Shown here: one piece after another, positions 17,501 to 22,205 of the stretch
Layout: each line of letters begins with the position of its first letter
Position numbering within the stretch: the stretch's first letter is position 1
Assembly (NCBI RefSeq): GCF_004117055.1
Contig: NZ_CP026363.1
Span: 1,589,001-1,653,000, forward strand
DNA: 64,000 nucleotides
From: Brevibacillus agri
GTDB taxonomy: Bacteria > Bacillota > Bacilli > Brevibacillales > Brevibacillaceae
Reading direction: 5' to 3'
Notes under the pieces: generated by a model
The model's input: only the letters and a program-made list of their open reading frames with translations
The model's database searches: none
What the model was told of the DNA's origin: nothing
Position numbers and translations under genes: made by a program

Positions 17501-17561
17501 TTGACATAAGCGTTCGAATATGTGATTATCAACTCCGTAACTGATAATGAGAATTATTATC
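17501..17561 (+). promoter_or_regulatory. Promoter with Fur box
   Basis: A perfect -35 TTGACA (17501-17506) is followed 17 bp later by a weak -10 GATTAT (17524-17529). The 19-bp GATAATGAGAATTATTATC at 17543-17561 matches the Fur consensus GATAATGATAATCATTATC at 17 of 19 positions and sits over the expected start site. Iron-loaded Fur should therefore repress the siderophore-binding lipoprotein gene at 17610. Confidence 0.88.
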
Positions 17562-17609
17562 ATAAAAATGGTTTACACCAAACACCATGGAGCAAGGAGA
17601 AATGAACGC

Positions 17610-18547
17610 ATGAAAAAAACAGCACGAATCGCACTGGCCTGCTTGGTTGCCGTAGCCGTATTGGCGGGTTGTGGCACAAGCCAAACCGCTTCGGAAGCAG
17701 ATACGCAGCCAAAGACACGCGTCGTCAAGCATCTGATGGGGGAAGTGACGATTCCGGCGGAGCCGAAACGGATTGCAGACGTGTCGGGGGCAGCCGAGGA
17801 ACTTTTGATTTTGGGACACAAGCCGGTGGCAACGGCGAATACATACAAAACAAAGATCATGTCCCACATAGCGGACAAGCTGACAGATGTAAAACCGGTT
17901 GGCTGGATGTGGGATGACTCCATCAATCTGGAGGCGGTAGTGGAAACAAAGCCAGACCTGATTATTATGAACAACCGCCAGCAAAAGCTGTACGAGCAAA
18001 TGTCCAAAATCGCGCCAACGGTCGTGCTGGAAACAGACATGGACAAATGGCGGGACAAGTTTAAAGAAATCGGCCGCCTGTTCGGACAGGAAGAAGATGT
18101 GAACAAATGGCTGGCTACGACGAGAAGACGAAAACAATGCGCGAGCAGCTCAAGCAGACATACGGCGACCAGAGCTTCATGTTCCTCGCTGTAACGCCGA
18201 AACTGTTCCGCGTGTACGGAAACTACGGCTATGCGGACATCCTGTTCTCGGATCTCGGCTTAAAGCCGGCAGCGGGAACACCTGCCGATAAAACAATGGA
18301 AATGGTCGAGCTGGAAGGACTGTCGAAGTTTCAGCCGGACCATCTGTTCCTCGTCAACTTCGGCGGCAAAGCGGATGAGGTTTACGCAGAGCTGAAAAAG
18401 AGCCCGGTTTGGAACAGCAACAAAGCCGTTCAACAAGGCCATCTTTATGAAGTGACGAACGAAACGTTCAACATCAAAGCGTTTGGCCCAATCGGCAAGG
18501 AAATGCTGCTTGGGGAGATCGGGGCGATGTTGCTGAAAAAGCAATAA
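17610..18547 (+). pseudogene. Iron-siderophore ABC substrate-binding lipoprotein, frameshifted
   Basis: The ATG at 17610 follows AAGGAG. The product starts with a lipoprotein signal (VLAGC lipobox, Cys about residue 21) and a Peripla_BP_2 domain (RIADVSGAAEELLILGHKPV, in part EELLILGHKPV; KPDLIIMNN). Near 18112-18116 the frame changes: the first frame ends in low-complexity residues, while a second frame (from about 18114) continues the domain through GDQSFMFLAV, FQPDHLFLVNFGG and GPIGKEMLLGE. One lost base (a G in CTGGCTAC) explains it. No permease genes adjoin, as for orphan hydroxamate receptors such as YxeB. It may be a true mutation or a sequencing error. Confidence 0.85.
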
Positions 18548-18855: not shown

Positions 18856-18958
18856 GAGATCGAGCAAGGCCGCCTGGTATTATCCCCTCATGGTAGACAG
18901 TAAAAAAAGACCTCATGGTATGATGAGATCAACACTGTTGACCGGAGGGGATTTTCTT

Positions 18959-19297
18959 ATGCCGCCACGTAAAGGGCAAAAACAGCAGCAATATGACGAA
19001 GCAACGAAGAGCGAAGCAGTACGTTTGCGGGTTGAGGAGCATTGGAGCTACCCAATGATAATGGAGAAATTAGGCATTAAAAGTAAGACACAGATTCGGG
19101 AGTGGGTACAGAAACGGCAAAACGGTGAAACGTTTGAAGACTATAGAGGGCGATGGATCAAGAAGTATTTCAGCAGTCTAGAGGAAGAGAACAACTACTT
19201 GAAAGCGCAGGTCGAATACCTAAAAAAGCTCAATCCAAATCTACACGGGGAGGGAAGTTGGATAAGCAAACCCGGTTTAGGACCATCGAAGAAATGA
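18959..19297 (+). CDS. IS3-family transposase OrfA
   Basis: The ATG at 18959 follows CGGAGGGG. The 112-residue protein has a helix-turn-helix DNA-binding domain (KSEAVRLRVEEHWSY, MIMEKLGIKSKTQIREWV) and a leucine-zipper-like coiled coil (LEEENNYLKAQVEYL). Near its end lies A-AAA-AAG at 19222-19228 in the correct frame for -1 slippage, which would make the OrfAB transposase. Confidence 0.92.
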   Translation: MPPRKGQKQQQYDEATKSEAVRLRVEEHWSYPMIMEKLGIKSKTQIREWVQKRQNGETFEDYRGRWIKKYFSSLEEENNYLKAQVEYLKKLNPNLHGEGSWISKPGLGPSKK

Positions 19298-20109
19298 GTT
19301 GCAAGTACGCTGTGGTCATGCTATGCGAAATAGCGGAAGTCTCCCGGGCGGGTTACTACAAGTGGAAGGCGACGGAGAAGGATCGTAAGGTACGTGTGGA
19401 GCAGGATGCCGACCTAAAGGAACATATACTGGCAATTCACCGCATTCGCCCATACTTTGGGTATAAACGAATGCGCACGGCTCTACGCAAAGAGGGACTA
19501 CAAGTAAATACTAAGAAAGTTCGCCGACTGATGCGAGAATTGGGCATCCGCTCAGTGATCCGCAAAAAGCGTCCATTTGTCGGCCGCAAGCCCTCCATCG
19601 TGTTCAATAATGTCCTCAATCGCCAGTTCGCTGCGGACGAGGCTAGAAAGAAATATGTAACCGATATTACCTATATTCGAGTCGTCGATGACTTCATTTA
19701 TCTGTCCGTGGTCCTGGATCTGTATAATAACGAAACGGTTGCTTGGGAAGTGTCGGAGAGGAACGATCTTGATCTTGTGCTGTCTACGGTGAAGCAACTG
19801 GGTATTGGAGATGCGATCCTGCACTCCGACCAAGGATTCCAGTACACTACCAAGACATACGCAAATCTGTTGCAAGAACAAGGGCTAACCGGAAGCCATT
19901 CCAGACGGGGGAACTGCTTCGACAACGCTTGTGTTGAATCGTTTTTTTCACACCTGAAGACGGAAAAGTTGTATCTGGAGAAACCAAGAGATATAGCTCA
20001 CGCTCGCAAGCTGATCGCTGAATACATCGAATTCTACAATACAGAGCGGTTCCAGAAAAAACTCGGCGACCTCTCCCCAGTCCAATACCGGGAATCGATC
20101 GCCGCTTAA
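19153..20109 (+). CDS. IS3-family transposase OrfB (DDE catalytic part)
   Basis: The frame covers HTH_21 (LCEIAEVSRAGYYKW, RPYFGYKRMRTAL) and a complete RNase-H-like rve domain. The catalytic residues are visible: D in VTDITYI, D in LHSDQG and E in CVESFFSHLKTE. It is probably translated mainly as OrfAB through the heptamer at 19222. The first residues up to about 19220 overlap OrfA and are probably not used on their own. Confidence 0.92.
   Translation: MDQEVFQQSRGREQLLESAGRIPKKAQSKSTRGGKLDKQTRFRTIEEMSCKYAVVMLCEIAEVSRAGYYKWKATEKDRKVRVEQDADLKEHILAIHRIRPYFGYKRMRTALRKEGLQVNTKKVRRLMRELGIRSVIRKKRPFVGRKPSIVFNNVLNRQFAADEARKKYVTDITYIRVVDDFIYLSVVLDLYNNETVAWEVSERNDLDLVLSTVKQLGIGDAILHSDQGFQYTTKTYANLLQEQGLTGSHSRRGNCFDNACVESFFSHLKTEKLYLEKPRDIAHARKLIAEYIEFYNTERFQKKLGDLSPVQYRESIAA
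19222..19228 (+). promoter_or_regulatory. Slippery heptamer A-AAA-AAG for -1 frameshifting
   Basis: In the OrfA frame the codons are CTA AAA AAG, giving the X-XXY-YYZ pattern. The -1 frame entered here runs on into the OrfB catalytic domain. This is the classic way IS3-family elements make the fused OrfAB transposase. Confidence 0.85.
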
Positions 20110-20197: not shown

Positions 20198-20222
20198 TGT
20201 AAGCAAATTTTATTTTTTCGTC
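20198..20222 (+). promoter_or_regulatory. Possible ECF-type promoter (autoregulation)
   Basis: TGTAAG (20198-20203) and CGTC (20219-20222), 15 bp apart, resemble the SigX/SigM-type -35 (TGTAAC/TGCAAC) and -10 (CGTC/CGAC). They stand 39 bp upstream of the ECF sigma gene. The spacing is one base short of the commonest value. Autoregulation is typical for such sigma factors. Confidence 0.5.
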
Positions 20223-20260
20223 TAATCAATAAGAACAACGTTAGATGAAGGAGCGAAGCA

Positions 20261-20791
20261 ATGGAGCCGGATGACAGAATCGAGCAATGGTTTCTACGAT
20301 ACGGCAACGATGTGTACCAGTACCTGGCCTATTTTACAGGCCGAAGAGACGTGGAGGATTTGGTTCAGGAAGTATTCACGAAGGCGCTGAAAGCCTTGTC
20401 CGGCTATGAAGGCAGGGCGCAGCCCAGGACGTGGCTGCTTGCGATCGCGCGGCACACGGCGATCGACCATCTGCGCAAGCAAAAAATGATCGACTGGTTC
20501 CCGGAGTCGATCCTCCGGTTTCTCCGTTCCAGGGAGCGCACGCCGGAGAAAGCATTGGTGTTAAAGGAGCAGCTACAAGAGGTGTACCAGACGATGAACC
20601 AGCTCAAAAGGACGTATCGCGAAGTTTTGATCTTGCGCCTGATCGAAGGCGTATCGACGGAGGAGACAGCCGAAATTTTGGGGTGGAGCGAAGCAAAAGT
20701 GAGCACCACGCTGCACCGGGCAGTCAAAGAGCTGCAAAAACGAATGCGCAATCGCGGCAAGGAGGTCCAGCTACATGACGTCATCTTCTGA
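20261..20791 (+). CDS. ECF RNA polymerase sigma factor, SigX-like
   Basis: The 176-residue protein has sigma region 2 (RRDVEDLVQEVFTKALKAL, e.g. DVEDLVQEVF; RTWLLAIARHTAIDHLR) and region 4 (REVLILRLIEGVSTEETAEIL, e.g. EGVSTEETAEIL; SEAKVSTTLHRAVKEL). Length and region-2 wording resemble SigX of Bacillus, which answers to cell-envelope stress. It overlaps the next gene by 17 bp; that gene begins like the anti-sigma factor RsiX, so the pair forms a regulatory switch at the membrane. The IS3 element ends about 110 bp upstream and leaves the putative promoter intact. Confidence 0.92.
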   Translation: MEPDDRIEQWFLRYGNDVYQYLAYFTGRRDVEDLVQEVFTKALKALSGYEGRAQPRTWLLAIARHTAIDHLRKQKMIDWFPESILRFLRSRERTPEKALVLKEQLQEVYQTMNQLKRTYREVLILRLIEGVSTEETAEILGWSEAKVSTTLHRAVKELQKRMRNRGKEVQLHDVIF

Positions 20792-22091
20792 AGAAAAAGA
20801 GATTAGCAGGCTGCTGCAATCATTTCCGAGGCTCAGCATGGAGGAGGACAAGCAGCGCGACATCATTCGTCAGCTTCGCCAGGACAAGGCGCTGCTCGAA
20901 AAGCGGAAAGGACGGACAACGTCCCGCAAAGCTATCGGAGGGATCGCTGCTTTTTTGGCAGCGGTGTGGCTCGCTTCTCCGTTTCTGCCCCCGTCACAAG
21001 CTCCATCCCCTCCCGGTAGCCAGAAGACAGAGGGCGAGAGTCGGCCGGCTGCGGGAGCGACGGAGACAGACCTTGTGCTGACGATCGACTCGCAAATCCA
21101 GTCGTATGTGGAAAAGGCGCTCGCGCAGACGCACGAAGCTGTTCGTCCGAAAAGCGTGACAGTCATCGTCGCCGACCCGAACAGCGGCGAGATTTTGGGG
21201 ATAGGCAGTCGGGGGAAGGATGAAAGCGAAAGTCGTTTTGACGGCGCGGTAAAAGCAATGCCTGACCCCGGCGCGGCCTATCAGATTGTGACGCTGGCGG
21301 CAGCGATACAGGAAGGCAAGTTTGATCCGCGCGAAATTTACGAATCCGGGACGTACACCGATATTCCGGGCGAACCGATCAAAGATTTCAACAACGGCAT
21401 CGGCTGGGGGAAAATCACCTATCTGGAAGGAGTTCTTCGTTCCTCGAATGTGGCATTCGCCAAGCTTGCCCACGAACGATTGCAGCGGGAGACGATGCAA
21501 CAATATTTGCAGCGATTTGGCTTCGGGCAAAAAACTGGGGCAGGGGTGGCAGATGAAGAGGCGGGGCAGCTTCCCAAGCTGGACGAGCCGCGCCAGGTAG
21601 CTTTGGCGGCCACGGGGCTGGGCGGTGCGGTTACTCCTCTGCAACAGGTTGCTGCGGTGGGGGCGATCGCCAATGGCGGAAAACTGATGCAGCCGCATCT
21701 GTTTAAACAGGCGGGAGCGGGGGAGAACAGCCGTTACATGATCCGCCAGGTCGTCTCGGAGGAAACGGCGGAAAAAGTTCGCGACATATTGGACTCTGTG
21801 GTCAACCGCGTTCACGGCTCCGGAGTTGGCCTTCGTCTTGCGCAGGAAGATTATTCGGTAGCGGGAAAGCCTAGTGTGATAGAGAAGACCGATCAGCAGG
21901 GGAACGCAACCGGAAAGTACGTTGTTTCCGTGATCGGATTTGCGCCCAGTGACGATCCGAAAGTTTTGGTGTATATCGGGGTGGACGAGCCGCAAAGGGA
22001 GTGGCCAGAAGTGCTCAGTTGGAGAAAAATCGTCGCTGAGCCATTCCAGCAGGTCTTGCAAAACAGCTTGCAGCATATACAGAAGCGATGA
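20775..22091 (+). CDS. Anti-sigma-factor-like protein fused to an inactive penicillin-binding transpeptidase domain
   Basis: The 438-residue protein starts within the sigma gene. Residues 1-50 are a short charged cytoplasmic segment (ISRLLQSFPRL, RDIIRQLR) like RsiX, and 53-70 form one membrane helix. Pro/Ser-rich residues 71-95 link to an outer domain (about 98-430) with the fold signature of class B PBP transpeptidases. The active site is lost: the Ser-x-x-Lys box (normally PGSTFK) reads PGAAYQ, so Ser is A167 and Lys is Q170. SxN (S223-S-N225) remains, and KTG reads K365-P-S. It cannot acylate, so a sensing or binding role is likely. Confidence 0.88.
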   Translation: MTSSSEEKEISRLLQSFPRLSMEEDKQRDIIRQLRQDKALLEKRKGRTTSRKAIGGIAAFLAAVWLASPFLPPSQAPSPPGSQKTEGESRPAAGATETDLVLTIDSQIQSYVEKALAQTHEAVRPKSVTVIVADPNSGEILGIGSRGKDESESRFDGAVKAMPDPGAAYQIVTLAAAIQEGKFDPREIYESGTYTDIPGEPIKDFNNGIGWGKITYLEGVLRSSNVAFAKLAHERLQRETMQQYLQRFGFGQKTGAGVADEEAGQLPKLDEPRQVALAATGLGGAVTPLQQVAAVGAIANGGKLMQPHLFKQAGAGENSRYMIRQVVSEETAEKVRDILDSVVNRVHGSGVGLRLAQEDYSVAGKPSVIEKTDQQGNATGKYVVSVIGFAPSDDPKVLVYIGVDEPQREWPEVLSWRKIVAEPFQQVLQNSLQHIQKR

Positions 22092-22133
22092 GCGGCGGCG
22101 AGGCGAAAACAGGATAGCTGATTGGCAGAAACA

Positions 22134-22181
22134 GGGATTCGCGAAGGGCAGGGCATGCTCTCGCGAATCCCGTTGTTTTTT
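22134..22181 (+). terminator. Rho-independent terminator
   Basis: A perfect 11-bp stem, GGGATTCGCGA (22134-22144) with TCGCGAATCCC (22161-22171), is followed by TTG and six T. It ends the sigma/anti-sigma operon. Confidence 0.92.
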
Positions 22182-22205
22182 CGGCTGATCGTCCCGATAG
22201 ATGAA

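Follow-up and report, generated by a model that had tools for sequence, protein, structure and literature searches.

Penicillin-binding proteins (PBPs) share the catalytic motifs SxxK, SxN, and KTG, and domains of the PBP type that can be acylated are known to act as sensors. As described in PMC8092216, BlaR1 and MecR1 are membrane sensors with an extracellular transpeptidase-like domain that reacts covalently with beta-lactams and with a cytoplasmic protease domain. The sigma-P/RsiP/PbpP system of Bacillus thuringiensis comprises an ECF sigma factor, a membrane anti-sigma factor, and a PBP tied to activation, with PbpP being a separate protein that senses beta-lactams through an active S301 (PMC8092216, PMC8844934). 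In RsiV of Bacillus subtilis, the ectodomain of the anti-sigma factor is itself the receptor and acts by binding its ligand lysozyme, with which it was co-crystallized, and RsiV is subject to regulated intramembrane proteolysis (PMC5014341). Release of Bacillus ECF anti-sigma factors is described as site-1 cleavage followed by RasP (PMC8844934 for RsiP, PMC8092216 for PbpP).

We analyzed a 64,000-nucleotide stretch (the window) of the Brevibacillus agri genome, which is a single contig of 5.37 Mb, and focused on a pair of genes whose products resemble these systems in some respects. Judged by its domains, the second protein is built like an anti-sigma factor of the RsiX/RsiV type with a SpoVD-like domain, and it is neither a SpoVD nor an active transpeptidase nor a BlaR-type sensor. 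It seems that these soil bacteria took a cell-wall enzyme, removed its chemistry, and made it the outer portion of a gene switch, which may thereby sense the wall without any reaction. Unlike PbpP, the transpeptidase domain here is built into the anti-sigma-like protein itself, and both the serine and the lysine are missing. The arrangement is like that of RsiV in that the ectodomain of an anti-sigma-like protein would be the receptor, but RsiV has a different ectodomain and a known ligand. No report of an anti-sigma factor with a transpeptidase ectodomain was found in the open-licence literature (listings and beginnings of abstracts), which most subscription papers lie outside of, and by term look-up the words penicillin and transpeptidase do not occur in PMC8103513 and PMC7406223.

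The first-pass annotation had described an ECF sigma factor gene overlapping the second gene. Its coordinates are exact (Table 1), and all 15 full-length copies of the second gene that we found have a sigma gene in front, so that the proposed sigma/anti-sigma architecture holds as an overlapping pair in every case. The overlap is accompanied in 15 of 15 pair loci by a GGAGGT ribosome-binding site inside the sigma gene, just 5' of the overlap. The 438-residue product consists, in this order, of a tip of about 50 residues, a hydrophobic segment, a linker, and the transpeptidase domain. Behind the two genes, folding of positions 22120-22190 gave -37.9 kcal/mol (z -6.27), a value that none of 200 shuffled sequences reached. 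Taken as a signaling unit, the two-gene operon is probably self-regulated.

Table 1. Features of the sigma/anti-sigma-like locus (positions in the window)
Feature	Position	Strand	Basis or occurrence
ECF-type promoter motif TGTAAGCAA-N12-CGTCTAAT	20198..20226	+	upstream of sigma in 15/15 pair loci
ECF sigma factor gene, 176 aa, SigX/SigM-like	20261..20791	+	Pfam and NCBIfam
Gene for anti-sigma-like membrane protein with pseudo-transpeptidase ectodomain, 438 aa	20775..22091	+	
Overlap of sigma gene and second gene, 17 nt	20775..20791	+	15/15 pair loci
Residues 1-50, putative cytoplasmic anti-sigma segment	20775..20924	+	tip homology
Residues 53-71, single candidate membrane helix, N-in, net +5 just before	20931..20987	+	hydropathy
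Residues 72-97, outer linker	20988..21065	+	pLDDT <50
Residues 98-438, SpoVD-type transpeptidase domain, catalytic residues lost	21066..22088	+	
P165-G-A167-A-Y-Q170 replacing P-G-S-T-F-K	21267..21284	+	Ser and Lys absent in 16/16
S223-S-N225 motif, kept	21441..21449	+	S223 16/16, N225 13/16
K365-P-S367 replacing K-T-G	21867..21875	+	
Terminator-like hairpin and T run, 3' of the two-gene operon	22134..22181	+	folding

The sigma factor has both regions expected of an ECF sigma factor, Sigma70 region 2 (PF04542, 2.8e-17) and region 4 (PF08281, region 4_2, 2.7e-15), each scoring above the Pfam cut-off. Its best NCBIfam model is SigX (NF007220) with 139.1 bits, below the curated cut-off of 260, and by this comparison it is SigX-like without being filed as SigX. 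Orthologues are 79-91% identical to the window sigma, and among the named relatives with the pair, a B. parabrevis genome is the nearest (91% for the sigma factor, 66-67% for the second protein). Paralogous Brevibacillus sigma factors reach up to 58% identity; 41 ECF sigma factors are reported for B. brevis (PMC3171730).

Paralogues also form SigX-like pairs of the same layout, with an overlapping second gene and a homologous tip, but with ectodomains of the DUF4309 type or others instead of a transpeptidase. Across 53 loci with an orthologous or paralogous sigma gene (some genomes being represented twice), the start codon of a long frame invariably overlaps the end of the sigma gene. When compared to the transpeptidase domain, 7 of the 53 downstream products, all from orthologues, score 851-1198, whereas the other 46 score 26-71; 14 of the 50 sigma loci listed (L104-L107, L109-L118) were left out of the downstream-gene check. 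This difference suggests that the ectodomain has been exchanged on a common chassis, and the tip looks like a reused module with the ectodomain as the changing part. Domain scans of nine paralogous proteins found DUF4309 in three, DUF4901 with a weaker FTP match in one, and nothing above the curated cut-off in five. More widely, sigma-linked anti-sigma-like proteins with similar tips (L076-L103, L127, L128, L144-L158) carry ectodomains of the DUF4309 or DUF4901 type, and several of them have no known domain. The sigma loci also include a single Paenibacillus record (L091), in which the sigma factor is 45% identical and the downstream protein lacks a transpeptidase domain.

The tip itself had been called RsiX-like in the first-pass annotation, and this is supported by its homology to tips encoded behind paralogous sigma genes. 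An hhalign comparison of residues 1-48 from 12 of the 15 orthologues with 14 paralogue tips gave a probability of 96.7 (E 4.1e-10) without the membrane helix; a comparison that included the helix gave 98.3. This similarity is somewhat favored by the choice of sequences, since 12 of 15 orthologues and 14 of the 18 paralogous proteins prepared were used, with L085, L157, L087, and L092, divergent ones among them, left out; the partners in the comparison are anti-sigma factors by position only, and B. subtilis RsiX itself is not among them. From position and homology, we infer that residues 1-50 bind the sigma factor. No zinc anti-sigma domain (zf-HC2 / ASDI) matched the N-terminal 101 residues in Pfam at E <=1, and the window protein contains no cysteine.

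The best 19-residue hydropathy of the following segment is 1.94 (1.58-2.64 across 15 orthologues), and together with the preceding positive charge it fits a single N-in helix; the structure model does not form a helix here and leaves residues 46-97 unstructured with pLDDT below 50, while the tip (residues 1-45) has a pLDDT of about 48-69. By eye, there is no clear signal-peptidase site in the second protein. The linker is variable except for Q83, which is invariant in all 15 full-length proteins, that of the window included, and follows A, S, or G; it is a possible protease-related site.

The assignment of the ectodomain to the class B PBP transpeptidase fold was borne out by both sequence and structure comparisons. 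Residues 129-407 match PF00905 (2.1e-54; 185.2 bits at a cut-off of 22.1), and Pfam at E <=1 gives only one further hit for the protein, an insignificant one to TMF_DNA_bd, so there is no metalloprotease domain. In the structure model, 233 of 438 residues have a pLDDT of at least 90, and ten-residue blocks between positions 101 and 438 average 69-98, mostly above 85. The model aligns by VIA-align to SpoVD of C. difficile (7rcz_A) with Z 43.6 and an rmsd of 2.4 over 333 residues, although the alignment from which it was built contained SpoVD sequences and the fold is therefore not independent of the sequence match. Structural matches range from Z 40.5 to 43.6 among the 50 entries listed, and the best Foldseek matches are S. 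aureus PBP1 entries.

Within the PBPs, SpoVD stands closest: the domain is 44-49% identical to the transpeptidase domain in 15 SpoVD-type rows of the taxonomic family, and the best NCBIfam model is that of SpoVD (TIGR02214) with 222.9 bits, below the equivalog cut-off of 688. Unlike SpoVD, the second protein has a different N-terminus and has lost the catalytic residues. A close kinship with this sporulation PBP is what one would expect if the second protein were a target or decoy, for example a competitor of SpoVD for its partners, that merely shares the operon and is not an anti-sigma factor. However, proteins that are encoded behind paralogous sigma genes with the same kind of overlap carry homologous tips, and SpoVD's N-terminal half is missing (the match covers model positions 206-558 of 636), which makes this explanation quite improbable to us.

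The first-pass annotation also proposed that A167 and Q170 replace the catalytic Ser and Lys, which is exact and extends to the whole clade rather than being specific to the strain: both residues are absent from all 16 pseudo-transpeptidase members compared (15 full-length copies and one shortened remnant) and present in 15 of 15 SpoVD comparison rows. The Ser position is occupied by A in 10 members, by V in 3, and by T, I, or P in the remainder, and the Lys position by P in 13 and by Q in 3. A homologue keeping Ser-x-x-Lys, as would be expected if the window copy were simply a decayed PBP, was not found among the 16. The claims of an altered KTG (K-P-S) and a retained S-S-N are likewise exact for the window protein and are refined by the clade, in which the residue at the K of KTG is K in 6 members, R in 8, N in 1, and Q in 1, and some orthologues retain K-S-G; T368, after the K of KTG, is replaced by I or V in 16 of 16. 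Around the former serine, G166V is found in 14 of 16 members, the window protein not among them, and T168A in 15 of 16. The genome encodes seven other PF00905 proteins, of which two (L001, L002) were checked for these motifs.

Since A167 makes acylation at the usual serine impossible, covalent sensing in the style of BlaR is ruled out on sequence grounds. The proposed difference from the BlaR/MecR principle is thereby upheld, as those sensors need an acylatable serine that is missing in 16 of 16 members, and the Brevibacillus protein lacks the covalent beta-lactam reaction as well as the cytoplasmic protease domain.

The original suggestion for how such a domain could sense was that the dead cleft retains non-covalent binding of its former ligand (stem peptide, lipid II, or a beta-lactam), with occupancy gating the anti-sigma factor. 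This main rival to our own reading draws on the kept fold, on S223-S224 being retained in all members and N225 in 13, and on the frequent change of K170 to P (13/16). By their titles, the structures listed include gonococcal PBP2 S310A, in one case as a pre-acylation complex with ceftriaxone, and overproduced PbpP S301A is described to still activate the sigma-P system (PMC8092216). At native expression, however, PbpP S301A fails to do so according to the same source. In the pseudo-family, moreover, S167, K365, and T366 rank with the domain's more variable positions (78th, 75th, and 91st entropy percentile), K170, N225, G367, and T368 lie at the 48th, 53rd, 53rd, and 56th, and S223 is invariant, while G166V, T168A, and T368I/V are found in most members. 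Variable catalytic columns with non-polar replacements do not indicate a fixed ligand in the cleft, which weakens the suggestion to the point that we consider it unlikely. The mixture of variability and non-polar changes at these positions instead favors, as far as can be judged from the alignment, a non-covalent contact through a surface other than the cleft.

A family-profile search in 39 genomes of the taxonomic family found the full-length gene in 15 of 26 genus genomes (the window genome included), a remnant in one, and nothing in the other 10; it was found in none of 13 genomes from other genera of the family. Carriers of the pair include B. parabrevis, two B. reuszeri, B. fortis, B. formosus, B. 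porteri, and an uncultured Brevibacillus, and an artefact of a single genome can be rejected on these counts. In a sample of 299 class genomes, the N-terminal profile matches at least 40 at E <=0.1; strong matches (E <1e-40) come from 8 genomes, all of the genus among the matches listed, 5 more near 1e-9 come from the genus and family and lie directly behind paralogous sigma genes, and 27 weaker class matches (1.7e-4 to 0.1) were left out of examination. The full profile at a limit of 1e-90 matches 4 of 398 phylum genomes, and among the matches listed only that of the window genome, the sole genus member of this sample, covers the N-terminal part. At least 210 plasmid records match, none of which covers 80% of the query among the matches listed. 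No homologue with an active site fused to an anti-sigma segment was seen in the class, phylum, and plasmid samples, in searches that would miss a diverged fusion or a fusion on another tip.

Phylogenetic analysis of 32 transpeptidase domains places the 16 members in a single clade (100/100), whose stem of 0.51 adjoins SpoVD of the family. The outgroup is a single PBP2B row on a long branch, so the capture is compatible with an origin inside or before the diversification of the family's SpoVD. Most simply, the catalytic center would already have been dead in the ancestor of the group. The median dN/dS of the transpeptidase domain is 0.24 (range 0.15-0.35; 52 usable of 120 pairs), compared to 0.29 in the tip and 0.42 in the region of helix and linker. 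These values exclude pairs whose dS fell outside 0.1-1.5 or could not be computed, namely 68 of 120 domain pairs, 5 of 105 tip pairs, and 32 of 105 pairs of the helix-linker region. None of the 15 full-length copies has an internal stop, and of 153 columns that are invariant in SpoVD, 58 are also invariant in the pseudo-family and 109 have the same majority residue. The loss of SxxK in every member, the altered KTG in many, the 10 genus genomes without a copy, and the shortened copy in another could be read as a decaying PBP fragment, fused by chance and left with a transpeptidase domain of no remaining function, but the dN/dS, the intact frames, and the 58 shared invariant columns speak against it, and we give this explanation hardly any credence. 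By these estimates, the protein is an old, maintained pseudoenzyme under purifying selection.

The remnant (G001; L024/L053) is a pseudo-transpeptidase open frame of 341 codons without tip, sigma gene, or exact promoter motif, in which an internal start codon would give 327 residues; its open frame may reflect either a recent deletion or a use of the domain on its own. Another genome (G018) has an exact promoter motif on the minus strand at about 3726-3754 of L200 with neither a sigma nor an anti-sigma gene behind it. This site lies behind permease-like genes, presumably of the siderophore type by their look, and a few kb from a gene for a binding protein whose family is also represented close to the pair in the loci of the window, parabrevis, and reuszeri. 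It is an apparent scar of a lost operon, and with moderate confidence we interpret both genomes as losses of the two-gene unit.

The promoter motif ends 34 nt before the sigma start in the window and is probably autoregulatory, with the window sigma as the factor that we infer to read it. Exact sites of the longer pattern number 16 across the 26 genus genomes, 15 before the pair and the one in G018 described above, and the shorter pattern adds one further exact site (in G025). With two mismatches allowed, the longer pattern has 8 sites in these genomes compared to 12 for a reversed control and is thus not in excess, and a looser pattern has fewer matches than the control in four of four genomes among the matches listed. 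One exact site of the loose pattern besides that of the operon is common to G000 and G016, but it is located inside an open frame on the opposite strand and was therefore not taken as a promoter. Promoter-pattern searches of the genus genomes thus found no convincing target promoter beyond the operon's own. Upstream in the window, an IS3-like transposase gene pair (18890-20109; the second frame has rve and HTH_21 domains, and no domain was found in the first) ends about 90 bp before the intact motif. Near these IS-like genes, the gene of a Peripla_BP_2 binding protein (17547-18547) is apparently frameshifted, as it is read in two overlapping frames.

We consider it fairly probable that the second protein is an RsiX-like anti-sigma factor whose sensor of wall synthesis is a dead SpoVD domain and which is released by regulated proteolysis, freeing the sigma factor. 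In this mechanism, the tip would hold the sigma factor inactive, and the dead domain outside the membrane would sense by non-covalent means how cell-wall synthesis is proceeding, most likely via a non-catalytic surface contacting a protein of the wall machinery. By analogy, an altered contact would expose the linker to a site-1 protease, with the dead domain controlling protease access, before RasP/RseP cuts within the membrane and the freed sigma factor transcribes its own operon. A homologue of RseP/RasP is encoded in the host genome (312 bits). More tentatively, a synthase domain could have been captured and stripped of catalysis to serve as a genus-specific sensor that follows wall synthesis non-covalently on an exchangeable anti-sigma chassis, where it might compete for, or dock on, the partners or products of SpoVD-type PBPs.

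If true, the conservation of such a pseudo-PBP as part of an anti-sigma factor would mean that the PBP fold is usable for sensing without its chemistry, and the sensor would copy the shape of the machine that it watches. The pair would then also offer a genetic entry point to the way in which Gram-positive cells monitor their wall synthesis. In Brevibacillus, a genus rich in ECF sigma factors, one short tip appears to be reused with quite different ectodomains.
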